DNA of 64,000 bases from assembly GCA_029881435.1 (NCBI GenBank), contig JAOUMR010000003.1, positions 1-64,000 of the forward strand, read 5' to 3'. Of the stretch, positions 1,345-21,574 are shown one piece after another. The translations under genes and the position numbers were made by a program. Below the pieces are notes generated by a model. The model had not been told where the DNA came from, searched no databases, and saw only the letters and a program-made list of their open reading frames with translations. Position 1 is the first letter of the stretch. Each line of letters begins with the position of its first letter. Source of the stretch: Nitrospira sp. (GTDB lineage: Bacteria; Nitrospirota; Nitrospiria; Nitrospirales; Nitrospiraceae).

Positions 1345-1665
1345 TTATGCAGAACGACGCACCCTGGTTAGCCGCCTGTGCTTAGGGTGCTGCAATTCGA
1401 CGCGGACCGGCCTCCCAAGCGCCGCGGCCATATTCACTAGTGCATCCAATGAAAAGCGAGAGATCCGTCCGCGGAGAAGATCATTGATCCGTGGCTGCGT
1501 GACTCCACATTTGGCGCCTGCGTCTATTTGAGTCCACCCGTTCTCCTCAATGACCTCGGTGATCTGCCGCATAAGCCCAGATCGCGCACGCAAATTCGCC
1601 GCCTGTTCGGGTGTATCGGCCAAGGCATCCCAGACACTCTTGAAACTGTGGATCGTCTTACTCAT
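1345..1665 (-). CDS. XRE-family HTH antitoxin (HigA-like)
   Basis: A 106-residue protein with a central helix-turn-helix. Residues about 29-85 read ITEVIEENGWTQIDAGAKCG, VTQPRINDLLRGR and FSLDALVNMAAALGR, the pattern of XRE-type antitoxins encoded behind Gp49/HigB toxins. It would neutralise the upstream toxin and repress the shared promoter at 1994-2022. Its ATG lies inside the last codons of the toxin gene (8-base overlap), the usual toxin-first HigBA order. A longer open frame upstream is the shadow of the toxin gene, so the start with MSKTIHSF was chosen. The family assignment is strong; the pairing is inferred from the overlap. Confidence 0.82.
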   Translation of the reverse strand: MSKTIHSFKSVWDALADTPEQAANLRARSGLMRQITEVIEENGWTQIDAGAKCGVTQPRINDLLRGRISRFSLDALVNMAAALGRPVRVELQHPKHRRLTRVRRSA

Positions 1666-1987
1666 GTCTCCCTCGCCTGAGTTCAGCGTATCGCGTTCTC
1701 GCCAGCTCGAGGTCGCGCTCGCTCGTGGCCCGGGTTTTCTTCTGAAACGCATGCAACACGTAGACGGCTTCAGCGAAGCGAGCGATGTAGACCACGCGAT
1801 AGGTACCGGAGTCATCCCACACTCGGAGTTCCTCAACTCCTTTTCCAACCGACGACATCGATTTGAAATCGGTTGGCTGCTTGCCGTGCTGGACTTGTTC
1901 CAGTTGGTATCCCGCATCATACCGCGCGTCTTCCGGAAACTGTCGGAGACACTCCAGCGAGTTTCCGAGGAAGCGCAGCGGTTTCAC
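1658..1987 (-). CDS. RelE/HigB-family toxin (phage Gp49-like)
   Basis: A 109-residue protein with the Gp49-like toxin core: SLECLRQFPEDARYDAGYQL in the N-terminal helices, then KSMSSVGKGVEELRVWDDSG, YRVVYIARFAEAVYVLHAFQKK and a C-terminal helix. This fold cleaves mRNA, usually on the ribosome, in characterised HigB toxins; here that is family knowledge only. It starts with GTG six bases after a near-consensus -10 box, so the message may be almost leaderless. It is the first gene of a two-gene operon with the XRE antitoxin, overlapping it by 8 bases. Confidence 0.83.
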   Translation of the reverse strand: MKPLRFLGNSLECLRQFPEDARYDAGYQLEQVQHGKQPTDFKSMSSVGKGVEELRVWDDSGTYRVVYIARFAEAVYVLHAFQKKTRATSERDLELARTRYAELRRGRHE

Positions 1988-1993
1988 GGCTCA

Positions 1994-2022
1994 ATTATAC
2001 CAATATGGATATATGACGACAA
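1994..2022 (-). promoter_or_regulatory. Promoter and palindrome of the higBA-like operon
   Basis: On the minus strand TTGTCG (2017-2022) and a perfect TATAAT (1994-1999) are separated by 17 bases. The toxin GTG begins six bases after the -10, so transcription should start at or next to the start codon. An imperfect 18-base palindrome (1996-2013, 14 of 18 positions symmetric) covers the spacer and -10. This is the expected place for autorepression by the XRE antitoxin. Confidence 0.6.
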
Positions 2023-2071
2023 GCCCAAGAAGATGCGATCAAGCGATAGGCTCAAGGGTACCGAGTTCGGG

Positions 2072-2154
2072 GTCATGCAGCGAGCACCGTCCCTTGGATT
2101 GTGAAGGTGAGAGAGGGGTCAATAGAGGCCATCAACGATGGGTTGAGCGCTTCG
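2072..2154. repeat. 83-bp direct repeat, copy 1
   Basis: This segment matches 3188-3270 at roughly 90 percent of positions without a gap and in the same orientation. The two copies lie 1116 bases apart and bracket the parDE module. Both contain a short inverted repeat, TCAAC-5 bases-GTTGA. It lies between the higBA and parDE operons. Its nature is unknown: it may be the footprint of the duplication or insertion that brought in parDE, or a dispersed repeat of this genome. Confidence 0.75.
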
Positions 2155-2223
2155 TATCCTCCAGCACGCGATTCCATTGATCCCCAACACCCGACTCCCA
2201 CGCTTCATGGGTATCCTGCTGCT

Positions 2224-2547
2224 CTACGAGGTTTCGAGGCCTAACAGGCTCCACCAATCCCGTGCCGCATGCAGCACACGCACGATGGTCACGCCGTCGG
2301 GGTGTGGGAGATAGAATATCAGGTGGTTCTCAAAGTCTGTGATGCGCCACTTGCGCATGGTGGCGAGATCGGGATGGCGTAGCGTCAGTGGTGCGCCGAT
2401 CAGAGGCTGACGGGCCAGATCGTGGAAACTTGCTTCGGCGTTGGCCAGAAACCGCTCTGCCGTGTCCAGCCCAGCTGCTTCTGCCAGATACACAAATTGC
2501 TCGACCAGGTCACGTCTGGCCGCCGCATGCTGGTAAACCACCAGCAT
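2224..2547 (-). CDS. parE: ParE/RelE-family toxin
   Basis: A 107-residue ParE-type protein. The N-terminal helical hairpin contains DLVEQFVYLAEAAGLDTAER and FLANAEASFHDLARQPLIGAP; the C-terminal sheet has MRKWRITDFENHLIFYLP and VTIVRVLHAARDW, the usual arrangement in which an Arg-rich strand precedes the final helix. Characterised ParE proteins inhibit DNA gyrase, but related RelE members cut mRNA, so the target is not settled by sequence. Its ATG overlaps the antitoxin stop by one base (TGATG), so translation is coupled. Confidence 0.85.
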   Translation of the reverse strand: MLVVYQHAAARRDLVEQFVYLAEAAGLDTAERFLANAEASFHDLARQPLIGAPLTLRHPDLATMRKWRITDFENHLIFYLPHPDGVTIVRVLHAARDWWSLLGLETS

Positions 2548-2807
2548 CAGCGCGGCTTCTTTCGGGCGGCCACCTTTGCCAAAGCCTCAGCGCGAATCTC
2601 CTTCCAATCTGCCGCCGTCAGTACGGTCTTCGGGCTCTTCAATCCGTCCAGTAACTTCGCTTCAAGCTCGTCTTCGGCTTTACGTTTTTCATCGGCCCGG
2701 ATGAGTTCCCGCACATATTCACTGGCGCTGCTATAGCGGCCTTGGGCAATTTGCCCATCTACGAATTGCTTCAAAGGATCAGGCAACGAGATGTTCATGC
2801 TCTGCAC
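2547..2807 (-). CDS. parD: ParD-type ribbon-helix-helix antitoxin
   Basis: An 86-residue antitoxin. MNISLPDPLKQFVDGQIAQG is the beta strand and first helix of a ribbon-helix-helix DNA-binding domain, followed by RYSSASEYVRELIRADE; the acidic, helical C-terminus would wrap the toxin. The GTG at 2807 was chosen because a strong ribosome-binding site (AAGGAGG, 2814-2820 on the minus strand) sits at proper distance from it. The ATG three codons later is too far from that site. It is the first gene of the parDE operon. ParD proteins repress their own promoter, and a symmetric site lies just upstream at 2843-2856. Confidence 0.83.
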   Translation of the reverse strand: MQSMNISLPDPLKQFVDGQIAQGRYSSASEYVRELIRADEKRKAEDELEAKLLDGLKSPKTVLTAADWKEIRAEALAKVAARKKPR

Positions 2808-2838
2808 GGGGCGCCTCCTTTTGTCAGATACCGCTTCG

Positions 2839-2867
2839 ACTATGCCACGGATGGCAATAAATGGCAA
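2839..2867 (-). promoter_or_regulatory. Putative parDE promoter and operator
   Basis: On the minus strand TTGCCA (2862-2867) and CATAGT (2839-2844) are 17 bases apart, a weak sigma-70-like promoter. The spacer carries the inverted repeat TGCCA-4 bases-TGGCA (2843-2856), with a third TTGCCA-type half-site coinciding with the -35. Such half-site arrays are typical ribbon-helix-helix operators. Assignment rests on position and symmetry only. Confidence 0.42.
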
Positions 2868-3508: not shown

Positions 3509-5740
3509 ATGAGACTATCACTCCGCTTCATCATCCCATTGGCCCTTGTCTTGGGGGTTATCGCCTACGGGGTCATCACCCTCGTCGATTCGCTTGAGCT
3601 GAAATGGTTCATTCGAGATCTCGACATGCGATCCAAGCTGATGATCGGCACGATGGAAGGGCCGCTTTCTGACCTCGTGAGCACGAATTCCGAGGATAAG
3701 ATCTTGGCCTATTTCACGCGGATCAGTCAGGATAAACGGCTGTATGCGATTGGCTTCTGTGATCTTGATAACCATCTGTTGTATGTGACCCAGTCCTACC
3801 CAGAGGTCGTGACCTGCCAGGCGACGATGAATCTCTCGCCAAGTTCGTCCACCATGATGTCGCTCAGTCATGGGCCGGTATACATCACGTCGGCATCGAT
3901 CGGATCAAACGGGCGTCAGCTCGGACGTCTCCTGCTCCTTCACGATATGAGTTTCATTGAACAACGCAGCAGCGACACAAGATGGTACATCTTCTATCTT
4001 TTTGTGGGGCTCGCAGCGGTGATCTCGCTGATCACCGTATCGGTTGCACACCTCAGTTGGCACGGGTGGGTTTCAAGTGTGCGAGCCATGCTGAAGGGAG
4101 AAGGGCTCCTGGCCTCGCTCAAGCACGAGGATCATGCGCCGGAACTTCAGCCACTGGCCAAAGATCTACGGTCGTTGGTGCAAGCGCTTGAAGCCGATCG
4201 CCGGATGCGCGATGAAAGTCAGGTTTCATGGAGTCCAGCCAGCCTCAAATCGATACTGCATGAGCAACTTGCCGGTGACCAAGTCCTGATTGTCTCCAAT
4301 CGGCAGCCCTACGCCCATAATTGGCACGATCGGAACATTGCGGTGCAGCTGCCGGCGAGTGGGCTGGTATCGGCGCTTGAGCCGGTGATGCGGGCCTGTT
4401 CCGGCACGTGGGTCGCGCACGGGAACGGATCGGCGGATCGAGCCGTGGTGGATAAACGAAACCATGTCGGCGTCCCGCCTTCCCAGCCGACCTATCAGAT
4501 TCGGCGGGTCTGGCTGACGGCAGAAGAAGAGCAGGGGTACTACTATGGATTTGCGAATGAGGGGTTATGGCCACTCTGCCACATTGCTCATGTCCGGCCC
4601 ACGTTCCGTTCATCGGATTGGAAACACTATGTCGCTGTCAATGAGCGGTTCGCTCAGGCCGTGTATGAAGAGGCCACGACCGACAATCCGGTTGTGCTCG
4701 TTCAGGATTACCATTTCGCGCTGCTTCCGAGATTGATTCGAGATTGGTTGCCGAATGCGACGATCATCATGTTCTGGCATATCCCCTGGCCGAACGCAGA
4801 AAGTTTCGGGATCTGTCCCTGGCGCGAGGAAATTCTGCAAGGGTTGCTCGGAAGCAGTATCTTGGGATTTCACACACGCGTCCATTGCAACAATTTTATC
4901 GATAGCGTCGATCGCACTCTTGAGGCGCGTATCGATCGAAACAGTTCGACGATCTCTTACGGAAGCAAGATGACGGCGGTCAACCCCTATCCGATTTCCA
5001 TCGAGTGGCCCATCCAATGGATCGGCGATCAGAAACCAGTTCCGGAATGCCACGTCAGCCTGCGAGAGGCCTATGGGATGCCGGCTGATCGCCTTATCGG
5101 CCTTGGGGTGGAGCGTCTTGACTACACCAAAGGAATCCTGGAACGGTTTATGGCTGTGGAACGATTGCTGGAGCTTCAACCGGAATGGATTGGCAGATTT
5201 ACGTTTCTTCAGGTTGCGGCGCCCAGTCGAGGGGTCATCGAACAGTACAACCATTTTGCCAATCAAGTCTCCGCGTTGGCGGAGCAGATTAACCAGCGGT
5301 TTGGTTGGGACGGTTATCAGCCCATCTGCCTGCGGATCGAACATCACGAACCGGCTCAGGTCTACGAATGTTACCGTGGCGCGGACGTGTGTGTGGTGAG
5401 CAGTCTCCATGACGGAATGAATCTTGTCGCTAAGGAGTTTGTCGGCGCCCGTGACGATGAGCAAGGGGTGTTGATCTTGAGCCAATTTGCCGGTGCGGCT
5501 CGCGAGTTGACGGAAGCGCTGGTGATCAATCCATATGACATCGATCAATTTGCTGCGGCCCTTCACCTGGCGTTGACTATGCCGAAGGGGGAACAGCGGG
5601 CTCGGATGCAGAGCATGCGTGGACTGATTCAAGAATTCAATGTGTATCGTTGGGCTGGTCGCATGCTTATGGATGCGGCTCGTATGCGACAAAAGGCACG
5701 AGTAATGAAGCAGGTGGGGCGGGCGAGTGCGTTGAGTTGA
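3509..5740 (+). CDS. otsA: Membrane-anchored trehalose-6-phosphate synthase with N-terminal sensor-like module
   Basis: A 743-residue protein with two parts. Residues 1-235 look like a receptor: a membrane helix (about 5-26), an extracytoplasmic stretch (27-157), a second helix (158-181) and a HAMP-like segment. Residues about 258-735 form a GT20 glycosyltransferase with VLVQDYHFALLPRLIRD, FWHIPWPNAESF, the Arg/Lys donor site in GVERLDYTKGI, and SSLHDGMNLVAKEFVGA. GT20 enzymes transfer glucose from UDP-glucose to glucose-6-phosphate. The acceptor loop is divergent (GTWVAHGNGSAD), so a related acceptor cannot be excluded, but otsB follows directly. Ordinary OtsA is about 460-500 residues and soluble. 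Placing the enzyme behind a membrane sensor suggests control by an extracellular signal; that is inference. Confidence 0.88.
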   Translation: MRLSLRFIIPLALVLGVIAYGVITLVDSLELKWFIRDLDMRSKLMIGTMEGPLSDLVSTNSEDKILAYFTRISQDKRLYAIGFCDLDNHLLYVTQSYPEVVTCQATMNLSPSSSTMMSLSHGPVYITSASIGSNGRQLGRLLLLHDMSFIEQRSSDTRWYIFYLFVGLAAVISLITVSVAHLSWHGWVSSVRAMLKGEGLLASLKHEDHAPELQPLAKDLRSLVQALEADRRMRDESQVSWSPASLKSILHEQLAGDQVLIVSNRQPYAHNWHDRNIAVQLPASGLVSALEPVMRACSGTWVAHGNGSADRAVVDKRNHVGVPPSQPTYQIRRVWLTAEEEQGYYYGFANEGLWPLCHIAHVRPTFRSSDWKHYVAVNERFAQAVYEEATTDNPVVLVQDYHFALLPRLIRDWLPNATIIMFWHIPWPNAESFGICPWREEILQGLLGSSILGFHTRVHCNNFIDSVDRTLEARIDRNSSTISYGSKMTAVNPYPISIEWPIQWIGDQKPVPECHVSLREAYGMPADRLIGLGVERLDYTKGILERFMAVERLLELQPEWIGRFTFLQVAAPSRGVIEQYNHFANQVSALAEQINQRFGWDGYQPICLRIEHHEPAQVYECYRGADVCVVSSLHDGMNLVAKEFVGARDDEQGVLILSQFAGAARELTEALVINPYDIDQFAAALHLALTMPKGEQRARMQSMRGLIQEFNVYRWAGRMLMDAARMRQKARVMKQVGRASALS

Positions 5741-5762: not shown

Positions 5763-6521
5763 ATGGATTATCTCTTGACGGACAAAGGAAGAGATAATCT
5801 TGAATCGCTCCTAAAGGGGCGTTCCCTTTATGCGTTCGATTTCGATGGGACCTTAGCCAAGATCGTTCCTGATCCGTCTGCCGCTCGACTGGGGCGCTCC
5901 GTCCGTTTCTGGCTCGAGGCGCTCGCGAAGCGCGCTCCAACCGCCGTCATCTCAGGGCGTTCCTTGGAAGATTTGCGACCACGTATTGGGACAACCGTTC
6001 CTGATCTGATCGGGAACCATGGTTCAGAAGGCCCTCATGTTGTGCAAGAGGCCATGCAGCAGGTTCGAGAGACCTGCCATGGTTGGCTGCGACTGCTCAC
6101 TGATCGATTTCAGGCTGAGTTGGCCCAGTCCGGGGTGCTCGTCGAGACGAAGTCCTATTCGTTCTCATTTCACTATCGAACGGTTGATCGGCGTGATGAG
6201 GCGCGAGCGTTGATCTCTCGCATTGTTGCGAGCTTGTCTCCTTCTCCCCGGATTGTTCTGGGAAAATCGGTCGTCAATGTCATGCCTCCATCGATGTGGC
6301 ACAAGGGAACCGCGTTGCTGGAATGCATGCGGCGACTTGGCTGTACGACCGCCCTCTATGTGGGAGACGATGAAACCGACGAAGATGTGTTTGGATTGGG
6401 TGACCACCATATCCTGACCGTGAGGATCGGGAAGAAGAACGCCTCGTCCGCTCGGTTTTTCCTGAAACGTCAGACGGAAATTACACAGGTATTACGACTG
6501 TTGGTAGAAGGGTGCGGTTGA
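5763..6521 (+). CDS. otsB: Trehalose-6-phosphate phosphatase
   Basis: A 252-residue HAD-superfamily phosphatase of the OtsB type. The nucleophile motif FDFDGTLAKI is at about residues 25-34, the second motif is AVISGRS with the substrate-cap region GNHGSEG, and motif IV is YVGDDETDEDVF near residue 200. It removes phosphate from trehalose-6-phosphate to release trehalose, an osmolyte and stress protectant. It follows otsA by 22 bases with a strong ribosome-binding site (GGGAGG), so the two form an operon. Confidence 0.93.
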   Translation: MDYLLTDKGRDNLESLLKGRSLYAFDFDGTLAKIVPDPSAARLGRSVRFWLEALAKRAPTAVISGRSLEDLRPRIGTTVPDLIGNHGSEGPHVVQEAMQQVRETCHGWLRLLTDRFQAELAQSGVLVETKSYSFSFHYRTVDRRDEARALISRIVASLSPSPRIVLGKSVVNVMPPSMWHKGTALLECMRRLGCTTALYVGDDETDEDVFGLGDHHILTVRIGKKNASSARFFLKRQTEITQVLRLLVEGCG

Positions 6522-6592: not shown

Positions 6593-8143
6593 TTATTCCA
6601 CCAACTGCGATCGTTCTCGCCCAAGAAGGAGATCGTAGGGAGCAAAGTCGTCGCTCAATACGACGCCTGAAGGCCACGGCTCGGTTCGGCGGGTGCTCAG
6701 CAGCGCGATGGTTTCAATCGGTAATCGCTGACTCTGTGCCATTTCCGAGATTCTCGCCTCGATCTGGTTTACCGATTCTGTTTCGATGAGATGACCTCCA
6801 AAAAAGATCAAATTTTTGGCCGGGGTCATCCCGGTTTTCCATGGGCCTTCGACTGCGAACGTAAGAAGAGCTGGGAAGGCCTGTTTCATGGTTTGGACGA
6901 CGGCTGCAGCTCGGGCAAGGTCTCCTTCTTTGCTGGACGATGCCAGGTTGACGGCAAGGACTCCGTCCGGGTTTAAACGTGTCCGTACTAAGGAGTAGAA
7001 CTCTGCCGTGGTGAGATGAAAGGGAATCATGTCTCGTGCGAAGGCATCGATCCACATGAGATCGTAGGTACGGTCCGTGGCATTGAGAAACGCCCGCCCA
7101 TCTTTCACGAAAACACGATGGTTAGCCGGCGGGTGATACTCGAAAAATTCTTCAGCCATGCGGACTACGACCGGATCGAACTCCACGATATCCACTTCCA
7201 GGGCAGGCCAATATTTTGCCAACCATTTGGCTATCGAGCCGCCGCCGTGACCAAGAATGAGGCTGCGTTGTGGCCGCGGGGCTAGTGCCAGCGAAGACAC
7301 CATCATTTGGCTGTAGGGGAGAAACAGATATACGGGGTCGGCCGTCCACATGGTGGCATGAAACGTTCGATCTAACACCAGATATCGAAAGAGATCGTCT
7401 TCTCGAATACGAACTTGCTGATAAGGGCTTTCTTCTTGATGAATCGGGACCTTCAATCGTTGGAGTGGGAAGAGGGCGGTTGTCCCCAATACGGCGCAAC
7501 AGCTCAGGACGATCAACAATACACTCCGGCTGGTCGAGGTTCCTTTCACGAGCCACCAGATTCCAAGTCCTACCTGTGTACCGCCTAGCCATGCGACCAA
7601 CGATTGACTGCCGACCCAAGAGAGGAGGAAGAACGCCGTTCCCCAGGTTCCGGCCAAGCTTCCCACGGTCGAAAGGGCGATCATCCGCCCGGTTTGTCGA
7701 CCGAGGTGATCCATGTCTGCCACCGCCAGTCGTAACATGGCTGGTAGGACACCGCTGAGCCCGAACGCTGGTGGTGCGAGCAGAACGGTTGCCGCAAGGC
7801 AGGGGCCCAAGCGCGGGTCTTGAACCAATTTTTCGATTTCGAAGAGGATGGGTTGGTTTGCCCACGCGATGAGAAAGGTCCACGCTCCAGAGAACAGCAG
7901 TAATGCCGCCAGCACTCGCCCATCGGTGTAGCGATCGGAGATCCACCCACCGAACGCATACCCGCTGCTCATGGCGGCCAGAATCACTCCTATCAAGGCA
8001 CCCCACACGAACAACGAACTGCCGAATACCGGTGCCAATAGGCGACTGCCTAAGATTTCCAATGCCATGACCACTGCGCCGGTCACGAGAGCGGTCAAGA
8101 GTAAAAACCAACGGGGAATTTGTGACCTATGTGAGGGAGTCAT
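6593..8143 (-). CDS. Integral-membrane spermidine synthase-like protein
   Basis: A 516-residue protein. The first ~220 residues hold about seven hydrophobic helices, beginning FLLLTALVTGAVVMALEILG. Residues about 280-460 form a spermidine-synthase-like Rossmann domain: SLILGHGGGSIAKWL for cofactor binding, VDIVEFDPVVVRMAEEFF, the acidic VKDGRAFL, and DLMWIDAFARDMIPFHLTT. Such fused proteins are widespread and mostly uncharacterised; whether they make polyamines is uncertain. The glycine loop has GHGGG rather than the usual GGGDG, so its substrate may differ. It is convergent with otsB and divergent from ugd. Confidence 0.8.
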   Translation of the reverse strand: MTPSHRSQIPRWFLLLTALVTGAVVMALEILGSRLLAPVFGSSLFVWGALIGVILAAMSSGYAFGGWISDRYTDGRVLAALLLFSGAWTFLIAWANQPILFEIEKLVQDPRLGPCLAATVLLAPPAFGLSGVLPAMLRLAVADMDHLGRQTGRMIALSTVGSLAGTWGTAFFLLSWVGSQSLVAWLGGTQVGLGIWWLVKGTSTSRSVLLIVLSCCAVLGTTALFPLQRLKVPIHQEESPYQQVRIREDDLFRYLVLDRTFHATMWTADPVYLFLPYSQMMVSSLALAPRPQRSLILGHGGGSIAKWLAKYWPALEVDIVEFDPVVVRMAEEFFEYHPPANHRVFVKDGRAFLNATDRTYDLMWIDAFARDMIPFHLTTAEFYSLVRTRLNPDGVLAVNLASSSKEGDLARAAAVVQTMKQAFPALLTFAVEGPWKTGMTPAKNLIFFGGHLIETESVNQIEARISEMAQSQRLPIETIALLSTRRTEPWPSGVVLSDDFAPYDLLLGRERSQLVE

Positions 8144-17900: not shown

Positions 17901-19169
17901 ATGCCGGTCGAGAATAACTTCCAGCACGACGAGCTGTCACGAAAGAGTCCGGGTGAGCGGCTAGTTGTGACTGACCTCGCCGATATCATCCCGCCGGAAT
18001 CGCCGGCCTGGGTCGAGGCCATGGCTACGTGTGGGGTGAGTCTCTCGCAGGCTGGTGTCGCAAGCGTTATCTTTCTCCATGGCTCAATTCACGGTACCGA
18101 TGTCTTTGGTATACAGCGCTTGGATGAGGTGGGAGGGCTCAAACGAGGGTACTCGCGTGGTGTATCAGGGCTCGATGCCCTGCTGGCAGCGATGCGTGAG
18201 GAGAGCAATGGTATCCCGTTGCTGCCGGGTGGGCGCAAGCCGCCGCTTCAGGATGATGATGCGACGAAAAAACTTCTGGATGACCAGCTTGGGGATGCAG
18301 GGAACTTTACCGACGCGAATATTCAGTCGTTGAAACAGGCCATCAACAAGAGCCTGACTCAGCCGATTTCGTGTATCAGGCACCTGTGGTCATCTGAACA
18401 CCATCATCTTGGCCGGGCGTTGGCCGCCGTGTCTCTGCTCGCTCAACTGCATAGGCTCTGCAAGGATCACAACCTCGGCAGGGGAAACCGCATTCTAATT
18501 CAGGCGCATGGGCAAGCCGGGTTGATCCTGGCACTTATGTCGAATCTTCTCTGTCCGACCCCGATCACCGGTCGAGCTAAGGTGTTCGATATTCTCAACG
18601 AGTATGCCGGCCAGACGACTCAGTCGGAACTTGCTTCCACGATCAAACTCATTGAGCCGTTGCTTGCAGCAGGGAGGTTACTCAACGGAACTGCCATCGA
18701 CATCGTGACCTATGGGACCCCGGTTCGCTATGGGTGGGACCCCTCCGGTATCGGACACCTGCTCCATGTCGTGAATCACCGAAGCTTGCGGACAGATGGC
18801 AAGAGCTGGTTGGCCAAAATGGAGCTGCCTCAGATTACGATGGAGATGCCGATCGCTTGGGGCGGAGACTATGTTCAAGAACTGGCGGTGGCAAGCACTG
18901 ATGCCGTCCCTCGGACGGAATCAGCCAAGGTGGCGAACAAAATGGTGTGGGAGATGGTCGAGCCGTACGATGGATTCGAACGTTGGCTGGAATGTGCCAG
19001 ACGCGCCGTGCGTTTTCCTGGTGAAGGGCGCTGTCTCCTCGTTGATTACAAGGACAGTACCGGATCGACGAATCCTCGTGATCATTACTATGGGCATGCC
19101 GTCTATACGCGACGGCATGCCCTGTTGTTCAACACGCTGCAGATTGTCCGTGCCTTTTATGAATCTTAG
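17901..19169 (+). CDS. Alpha/beta-hydrolase-fold protein lacking the nucleophile
   Basis: A 422-residue protein without a signal peptide. Residues 55-70 (SVIFLHGSIHGTDVFG) look like the oxyanion strand of lipase-like hydrolases, and residues 198-212 (ILIQAHGQAGLILAL) look like the nucleophile elbow. The usual G-H-S-x-G-G is here A-H-G-Q-A-G, with Gly204 in place of the serine. A later strand, IDIVTYGTPVRYGW, matches the region that follows in lipases. The C-terminal part has DYKDSTGSTNPRDHYYGHAV. No family was recognised with certainty. It seems to have kept a lipase-like fold and lost hydrolysis, or to use another chemistry. It converges on lon with a 4-base overlap. Confidence 0.6.
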   Translation: MPVENNFQHDELSRKSPGERLVVTDLADIIPPESPAWVEAMATCGVSLSQAGVASVIFLHGSIHGTDVFGIQRLDEVGGLKRGYSRGVSGLDALLAAMREESNGIPLLPGGRKPPLQDDDATKKLLDDQLGDAGNFTDANIQSLKQAINKSLTQPISCIRHLWSSEHHHLGRALAAVSLLAQLHRLCKDHNLGRGNRILIQAHGQAGLILALMSNLLCPTPITGRAKVFDILNEYAGQTTQSELASTIKLIEPLLAAGRLLNGTAIDIVTYGTPVRYGWDPSGIGHLLHVVNHRSLRTDGKSWLAKMELPQITMEMPIAWGGDYVQELAVASTDAVPRTESAKVANKMVWEMVEPYDGFERWLECARRAVRFPGEGRCLLVDYKDSTGSTNPRDHYYGHAVYTRRHALLFNTLQIVRAFYES

Positions 19170-21574
19170 GCATCATCCGTGTCGGTGCTAGAAGCCGTTA
19201 CAGGTTCACTGCCACTACTGGATGACGGGTCGTGCGAATCCGGATTGAAAGCCGCCGGCAATACCTCTTCAACCCGCTCAGCGAGGATGAAGGTCAGTTC
19301 GTCGCGTACTTCTTGCGGGATATCCTTGAGATCTTTCTCATTGGCCTTCGGCAGGATGATCCGCTTGATTCCCGCTCGATGGGCTGCCAGCACTTTTTCT
19401 TTAATGCCGCCCACTGGCAACACGAGCCCGCTTAAACTGATTTCACCCGTCATGGCTGTGTCGCTCCGCACGGCTTTCCCTTCGTAGGCGGAGGCCAGAG
19501 CGGTGGCCATCGTGATTCCAGCCGATGGACCATCTTTCGGAATGGCTCCGGAGGGTACGTGGATATGGACTCCATTTCGTTTAAAACGCGAGATGTCCAA
19601 ACCCATGCTCTCGGCATGCGACCAGAGATAGCTTCTCGCTGCCCGTGCAGACTCCTGCATGATATCGCCAAGTTGTCCCGTCAGCGTCAGTTCATGGCCG
19701 CCGGGGAGTAAGGTGGTTTCAATATAGAGCACATCTCCACCAGTCGGGGTCCAAGCAAGACCCGTGGCGACGCCGGGAGGCAGAGTCTTCCGGGCCTCCT
19801 CCGGCATAAACCGTTCGGAGCCCAACCACTCACCAAGTATATCGGCCTGAATGGTGACCGGCTGTCGTGCCTGGTCTTCCGGGAGGTCGGCGAAGGTCAA
19901 GGCTACTTTTCTGGTCAACCGTCCCAGCATCTGCTCGAGTTGGCGCACGCCGGCTTCACGGGTATAGCGCGAGATGACAAGATTCAGGACGTCGTCCGTG
20001 AGCACCACTTCACTATCCATGATGCCAGCCTCTTTGAGCCGTCTCGGCCACAAGTAGCGACGGGCAATTTCGGCCTTCTCTCGCTCGCTATAACCTTGGA
20101 GGCGGATGACTTCCATCCGATCCAACAGGGGTTGACTGATGGTGTCGAGAGTATTGGCCGTGGTGATAAAGAAGACCTTCGACAGATCGAACGGGAGATC
20201 CAGGTAATGGTCACGGAATGTGTGATTCTGTGCCGGGTCAAGAATCTCCAACAGCGCTGCTGCCGGATCCCCTCGGAAATCCCGCCCCATCTTGTCGACT
20301 TCGTCGAGCATCAAAACAGGGTTATTAACCTCAGCACGGCGGATCGCCTGAATGATGCGGCCTGGTAATGAGCCAACATAGGTGCGGCGATGGCCACGCA
20401 GCTCGGCTTCATCATGGACCCCGCCAAGGCTGAATCGTTCGAAGGTCCGGCCCATTGCCCTCGCAATCGACTGCCCTAGGCTCGTCTTGCCGACGCCGGG
20501 AGGACCCACGAGACAAAGAATCGGGGCCTTGGCTTTCGGGTTCAGCTTCAAGACGGCCAAGTGTTCGACGATCCGTTCCTTCACTTCTTTGATGCCGTAA
20601 TGATCCTCTTCAAGCACCTGGCGCACGGTGGAGAGATCGAGATGTTCTTCAGACGCTTTCTTCCAAGGAAGTTCGAGGACCAGCTCCAGGTATGTCCGAA
20701 GAACCTGATGGTCCGGCGATGTCGGTGGCACCTTGCCTAACCTGGTAACTTCGCGCTCCACTTCCTTGCGAATATGATCAGGCAAGTCTGCCTCGTTGAT
20801 TTGCTTCTTTAGGCGAGATACCTCGTTCTCGTCGTCCTCGCCTTCGCCCAACTCTTGCTGGATGGCCTTCAGCTGTTCGCGCAGAATGTACTCTCGTTGG
20901 CTCTTGCCGATCTTTGTCTGTGCGTCTTTCGCGATCTTCTCCCGTAGTTGAAGTATTTGGAGTTCTTTCGAAAGCGCGGCGTAGAGACTGCGCAATAGCT
21001 CGAGGGTTGTGGTGCATTCAAGTAGGCGCTGTTCCTCCACGACGTTGAAGTTGACCAAGGAAGCAATGCGATAGGCGAGCGAGAGCGAGTCGTCCTCATT
21101 GCTCAGCACTGCGCTGACTTCTTGGACACCCGGTGCTTCAATGAGTCGGGGAAGGTCGGACAGAAGTTCCTGGATGGCCCGATGCAGTGCCTGGACTTCA
21201 GGTCCGCTGTCGGAAGGACGCTCCAGTGTACGAACTCGAACCGTGGCATAGGGAGTAGACTGTTCTTCTTTCAGGAGCACGACGCGGTCCAATCCTTGAA
21301 CGAGGGCGTGAATCCTTCCTTCCGAAGATTGCCCCAGTTGTTTAACGGTCGCTTTTGTGCCAATTGGATAGAGATCCGTCAATCCGGGTTCTTCGGTTTG
21401 AGGATCTCGTTGAGCCACGACCACGATCATCTTTTCTTCGGTCTTCATCGCCGCGTTGACGGCCGCAATAGACCGTTCCCGCCCGATCGTTAACGGCATC
21501 ATCACTCCGGGAAACAGGACTGTCCGTTTGACGGGAAGGATCGGCAACGTCGATAAGAGATTATTATTTTCCAT
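19166..21574 (-). CDS. lon: ATP-dependent protease Lon
   Basis: An 802-residue, full-length bacterial Lon. Residues about 10-205 form the N-terminal substrate domain (LPILPVKRTVLFPGVMMPL), followed by coiled coil. The AAA+ module has Walker A GPPGVGKT at 357-364, the GGVHDEAELRGHRRTYVGSL pore segment and Walker B PVLMLDEVDK. The C-terminal protease domain contains DGPSAG with the catalytic Ser and the later Lys in LPVGGIKEKVLAAHRAG. It degrades misfolded and regulatory proteins, often antitoxins in characterised bacteria; the window holds three antitoxin genes. It stands alone. Confidence 0.97.
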   Translation of the reverse strand: MENNNLLSTLPILPVKRTVLFPGVMMPLTIGRERSIAAVNAAMKTEEKMIVVVAQRDPQTEEPGLTDLYPIGTKATVKQLGQSSEGRIHALVQGLDRVVLLKEEQSTPYATVRVRTLERPSDSGPEVQALHRAIQELLSDLPRLIEAPGVQEVSAVLSNEDDSLSLAYRIASLVNFNVVEEQRLLECTTTLELLRSLYAALSKELQILQLREKIAKDAQTKIGKSQREYILREQLKAIQQELGEGEDDENEVSRLKKQINEADLPDHIRKEVEREVTRLGKVPPTSPDHQVLRTYLELVLELPWKKASEEHLDLSTVRQVLEEDHYGIKEVKERIVEHLAVLKLNPKAKAPILCLVGPPGVGKTSLGQSIARAMGRTFERFSLGGVHDEAELRGHRRTYVGSLPGRIIQAIRRAEVNNPVLMLDEVDKMGRDFRGDPAAALLEILDPAQNHTFRDHYLDLPFDLSKVFFITTANTLDTISQPLLDRMEVIRLQGYSEREKAEIARRYLWPRRLKEAGIMDSEVVLTDDVLNLVISRYTREAGVRQLEQMLGRLTRKVALTFADLPEDQARQPVTIQADILGEWLGSERFMPEEARKTLPPGVATGLAWTPTGGDVLYIETTLLPGGHELTLTGQLGDIMQESARAARSYLWSHAESMGLDISRFKRNGVHIHVPSGAIPKDGPSAGITMATALASAYEGKAVRSDTAMTGEISLSGLVLPVGGIKEKVLAAHRAGIKRIILPKANEKDLKDIPQEVRDELTFILAERVEEVLPAAFNPDSHDPSSSSGSEPVTASSTDTDDA

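Follow-up and report, generated by a model that had tools for sequence, protein, structure and literature searches.

Control of bacterial OtsA is known to act on transcription or through cytoplasmic allosteric effectors. OtsA enzymes of the GT20 family, such as those of E. coli (1GZ5) and M. thermoresistibile (5JIO), are soluble, and the protein described here, encoded in a 64,000-nucleotide stretch of a Nitrospira sp. genome (the window), resembles them in its catalytic fold, its catalytic and substrate residues and its otsB partner. It differs from them in carrying an N-terminal TM-Cache-TM-HAMP-type module, in replacing Trp42 by His, and in scoring under the OtsA equivalog cut-off. The same TM-Cache-TM-HAMP input module occurs in histidine kinases of the WalK/YycG and CitA/DctB types, with sequence homology at the level of the family, whereas the output here is a glycosyltransferase, with neither HisKA nor HATPase, and the HAMP of the window clade is degenerate. 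Cache-HAMP chemoreceptors (PctA, TlpB, Tlp3) share the outer fold by structure, but the window protein lacks a methyl-accepting domain and has an enzyme as its output. Finally, the bifunctional fusions of OtsA with OtsB (NCBIfam PRK14501) resemble it in containing GT20 and in having a similar length, yet their additional part, a phosphatase, lies at the C-terminus; that of the window protein lies at the N-terminus and spans the membrane, with otsB encoded separately. The architecture is new and its parts are known; searching the open-access literature for an OtsA or T6P synthase combined with a HAMP, a Cache, a sensor or a membrane-spanning N-terminus, we did not find it described, which within that scope is weak evidence.

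The gene is an unbroken open reading frame of 743 aa on the + strand (positions 3509-5740, stop included). The earlier note had read its beginning (3509-4290, that is, the N-terminal module and the first GT20 residues) as a helix, ~130 extracytoplasmic residues, a second helix and a HAMP-like linker fused to GT20, a layout that the ORF, hydropathy, Pfam and AlphaFold2 together bear out. Upstream of GT20 there are exactly two strong hydrophobic segments, at about residues 8-26 and 161-180, which we assign to TM1 (about residues 8-26; 3530-3586) and TM2 (about residues 159-180; 3983-4048). The AlphaFold2 model of the whole protein, made with 63 relatives, has a mean pLDDT of 85.8 and predicts, in order, a helix at 2-59, a helix at 62-76, five strands within 78-146, a helix at 148-196, a loop, a helix at 211-236, and GT20. 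Modelled alone with 72 relatives (residues 1-257), the N-terminus reaches a mean pLDDT of 84.2. A joint helix at residues 241-255 (4229-4273) precedes the enzyme, and several soluble sister enzymes start exactly at the joint residue of the fusion.

Following the ORF by 22 bp lies otsB (5763-6521, +), encoding a trehalose-6-phosphate phosphatase of 252 aa (PF02358 E=5e-27; above the TIGR00685 cut-off). The genome has no GT20 gene besides that of the fused protein, and TreY and TreS are encoded as well (G000:C32:8592-11465 and 18201-19808), so trehalose can be obtained by routes besides OtsAB. Directly past otsB, a fused MFS/spermidine synthase gene at 6593-8143 (-) likewise joins a membrane protein to an enzyme. 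On the other side, two toxin-antitoxin-like pairs at 1345-2867 (-), one Gp49/HigB-like with an HTH_37 partner and the other ParE/ParD, separate otsA from a gene for a universal stress protein. A promoter scan yielded no more than expected by chance.

The extracytoplasmic domain (residues 28-157; 3590-3979) is predicted to adopt an sCache/PDC-type sensor fold, as had been expected of residues 27-157, for which a CACHE/PAS-like fold was proposed. The model contains a long N-terminal helix, a second helix, a five-stranded sheet and a C-terminal helix that enters TM2, and all of these elements return when residues 1-257 are modelled alone. Its pLDDT is about 90 over most of the domain (mostly about 85-93), with 61-75 in two blocks within residues 91-110. 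With the N-terminal model as query, Foldseek returns WalK, DctB, CitA and other PDC/Cache sensors (WalK at E 1.2e-6 and 1.6e-4), and VIA-align with the 1-257 model places the WalK-YycH model 9a5d at the top (Z 13.5), along with WalK 4ywz (Z 12.8, rmsd 2.7 over 130), CitA (Z 12.8), LuxQ (Z 12.7) and DctB (Z 12.0). By sequence alone, the family profile matches the WalK sensor at E=4e-6. Pfam Cache models do not match the window protein itself but do match relatives, with sCache_3_2 found in 15 of the 63 family members and dCache_3 in seven (best 1.2e-7). Within this domain, Cys84 (codon 3758-3760, +) and Cys103 (codon 3815-3817, +) do not vary among the 15 relatives of the window clade that were aligned and are absent from the other phyla, which hints at a possible disulfide or redox role for the pair.

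The N-terminal module of the family is common to true TRANSMITTERS. When the family profile was run against 199 Acidobacteriota genomes, it found, besides the fused GT20 proteins, others that matched at positions 1-262 only (E per genome between 9e-24 and 6e-28); from reading their sequences, rather than from a profile search, we assigned these as HAMP-HisKA-HATPase histidine kinases. Taken separately, the outer domain alone matches these kinases at E about 1e-15 and the HAMP alone at about 4e-6. As the N-terminus of the family and both of its parts match the kinases, the module fused to GT20 is a signalling input module by descent. For the window clade itself, the outer domain alone stays below significance against histidine kinases (E 0.4), while HHalign against the family gives 99.5% for the whole N-terminus and 98.1% for the outer domain alone. 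The tie of this clade to the kinases runs through intermediate family members and through structure.

The linker that follows TM2 (residues 182-236; 4052-4216) is a helix-connector-helix element. In the model, the helix at 148-196, the loop and the helix at 211-236 have a HAMP-like topology, with a pLDDT of 46-63 around residues 181-220, a region that takes in the low-confidence stretch at 190-208. The linker of the family alone aligns with histidine-kinase HAMP at the E of about 4e-6 given above, and the window linker with TM2 aligns to the family at 95.5% in profile-profile comparison, so that, judged from these alignments, the linker is homologous to HAMP at the family level. The Pfam HAMP model does not match the window protein, and matches only 3 of 63 relatives. 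In the window clade Trp187 takes the place of the hallmark Pro after TM2, which 61 of the 62 other members possess, and at 82 residues the linker of the Nitrospira clade (the window's genus and family, as delimited by gene content and kinship tables) is nine shorter than the 90-93 found elsewhere in the family. Its sequence thus marks the HAMP of this Nitrospirota clade as degenerate. Of the earlier note's expectation of a HAMP at 182-235, a helix-loop-helix homologous to that of histidine kinases stands, and an intact HAMP does not.

The architecture is not peculiar to this genome. Among the 296 Nitrospirota genomes sampled, a full-length match was found in 54 and a deeper-branching form in 16 more. 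A scan of the genome collection gave at least 513 related stretches, of which 80 were kept, and nearly all of these 80 loci have two TM segments before GT20. By the titles of the MAGs they come from, they belong to Nitrospirota, Acidobacteriota, Elusimicrobiota, Thermodesulfobacteriota, Myxococcota, Bacteroidota, Chlorobiota, Methylomirabilota, Verrucomicrobiota, Planctomycetota, Gemmatimonadota, Omnitrophota and Taylorbacteria. The receptor-GT20 architecture is thus present in at least 12 phyla, with the reservation that these assignments rest on MAG titles and that single cases may reflect binning errors. Chance fusion or misassembly is ruled out by conservation in dozens of genomes and recovery of the layout from about 80 independent contigs. 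In a tree of the GT20 domain, the fused forms make up essentially one clade, except for Aminobacter and for a single Omnitrophota row whose placement is weak, and probably share one origin. The Nitrospira-type fusion, degenerate HAMP included, is also carried by Acidobacteriota genomes (L186, L188), a pattern suggestive of lateral transfer. No relative was found in the viral contigs searched, and on plasmids a close subfamily match was seen in two Aminobacter hits only, the other matches listed being mostly GT20 only.

With some dS values saturated, dN/dS is about 0.06-0.13 for the outer domain, 0.02-0.06 for the linker and 0.02-0.08 for GT20, so that the linker is as low as the enzyme, and the sensor is under purifying selection. 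Gene decay was rejected on these same values, which, with that saturation, are far below 1.

We consider it probable, with substantial room for doubt, that this is a single-protein receptor enzyme, in which a signal at the outer Cache domain alters the rate of the cytoplasmic GT20. The protein would sit in the inner membrane as a homodimer or higher oligomer, with two helices per chain, and its extracytoplasmic Cache-type domain would bind or sense something. The resulting change would travel via TM2 and the HAMP-derived helical linker and shift the strand, loop and helix with which GT20 begins, changing the rate of trehalose-6-phosphate synthesis, and the adjoining OtsB would then convert trehalose-6-phosphate into trehalose. 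The step from linker to GT20 is plausible because OtsA is a tetramer under allosteric regulation, and its N-terminal loop and alpha-1 shift by about 12 Å on closing (PMC6879718). Signal-dependent control of activity is likely and the best explanation of this protein; its effect may be to turn on osmolyte synthesis, as the earlier note proposed. An osmotic signal is one guess only and is unsupported, as nothing points to osmolarity. Against the receptor reading stand the degenerate HAMP of the window clade, the low pLDDT of the linker, the E of 0.4 for the outer domain and the existence of a sensorless relative in Aminobacter.

The main rival to the receptor enzyme is a plain membrane anchor, where the N-terminus does no more than hold trehalose-phosphate synthesis at the inner membrane, with the Cache domain as a structural relic or a surface for protein docking that exerts no control over activity. 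This is what the Aminobacter plasmid relatives (L056, L057) would favour, as they adjoin the window clade in the GT20 tree and possess one TM but no sensor; that relative kept the TM and lost the sensor, and the enzyme can therefore exist without the receptor. The Aminobacter genes lie next to an amylo-alpha-1,6-glucosidase gene and near one for a HAD-IIB hydrolase. The degenerate HAMP and the existence of soluble sisters also agree with an anchor. However, an anchor does not need 130 residues of Cache fold conserved at a dN/dS of about 0.1 across genus and family, nor a linker as strongly conserved as the enzyme, and it leaves unaccounted for an input module that the family has in common with histidine kinases. 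We therefore regard the anchor as unlikely, if still a serious contender.

The catalytic domain (residues 258-723; 4280-5677) matches Pfam GT20 (PF00982) at E=7e-118, with 394.7 bits against a gathering cut-off of 32.5, and has the GT-B fold of OtsA (5jio, E=1.2e-38, TMt 0.93). Residues R265, Y345, W354, D400, H424, R536, K541, R574, D635 and E643 match R9, Y76, W85, D130, H154, R262, K267, R300, D361 and E369 of E. coli OtsA, all ten of which are conserved in the window and in the fused clade. With the catalytic set intact, a pseudo-enzyme was rejected, and G6P would be the acceptor. Nevertheless, the score does not reach the cut-off of the OtsA equivalog TIGR02400 (402 vs 564.85 bits), and E. 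coli Trp42 corresponds to His304 (codon 4418-4420), His also being found in most of this GT20 subfamily; for these two reasons we name the enzyme only OtsA-like. Both observations would suit a GT20 that is gated by the sensor but works with a different acceptor or nucleotide sugar, so that its product is a related glycoside phosphate instead of trehalose-6-phosphate, as would the score below the NCBIfam cut-off for glucosylglycerol-phosphate synthase (TIGR02398; 280.6 vs 569 bits). Yet the main residues for G6P and donor, as named in PMC6879718, are conserved, and the otsB located 22 bp downstream scores above the trehalose-phosphatase cut-off. Moreover, an OtsB homologue is present in at least 42 of the 80 related loci, a lower bound from a one-sequence search. 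A different product is, in our view, quite improbable.

Hardly credible is a third reading, with an outward-running signal or a deaf receptor, GT20 sensing a cytoplasmic sugar phosphate and the outer domain only docking a periplasmic partner: outer domains of the WalK type can work together with partner proteins, and the WalK-YycH model is the top structural match, but no neighbouring partner gene besides otsB was recognised in the loci examined, which was a limited check, and no OtsA enzyme that behaves in this way is known to us.

Returning to the receptor enzyme, the balance tilts slightly towards a widespread and undescribed class of receptor glycosyltransferases, that is, transmembrane Cache-HAMP receptors whose output, instead of phosphorylation or a second messenger, is the synthesis of the protective metabolite itself, which would form a transcription-independent switch from signal to trehalose. 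The family offers a direct test of HAMP-type signalling driving a GT-B glycosyltransferase. If the receptor reading is true, a metabolic enzyme would join the short list of outputs of the Cache-HAMP module, and a cue from outside the cell would directly start the synthesis of a stress protectant.
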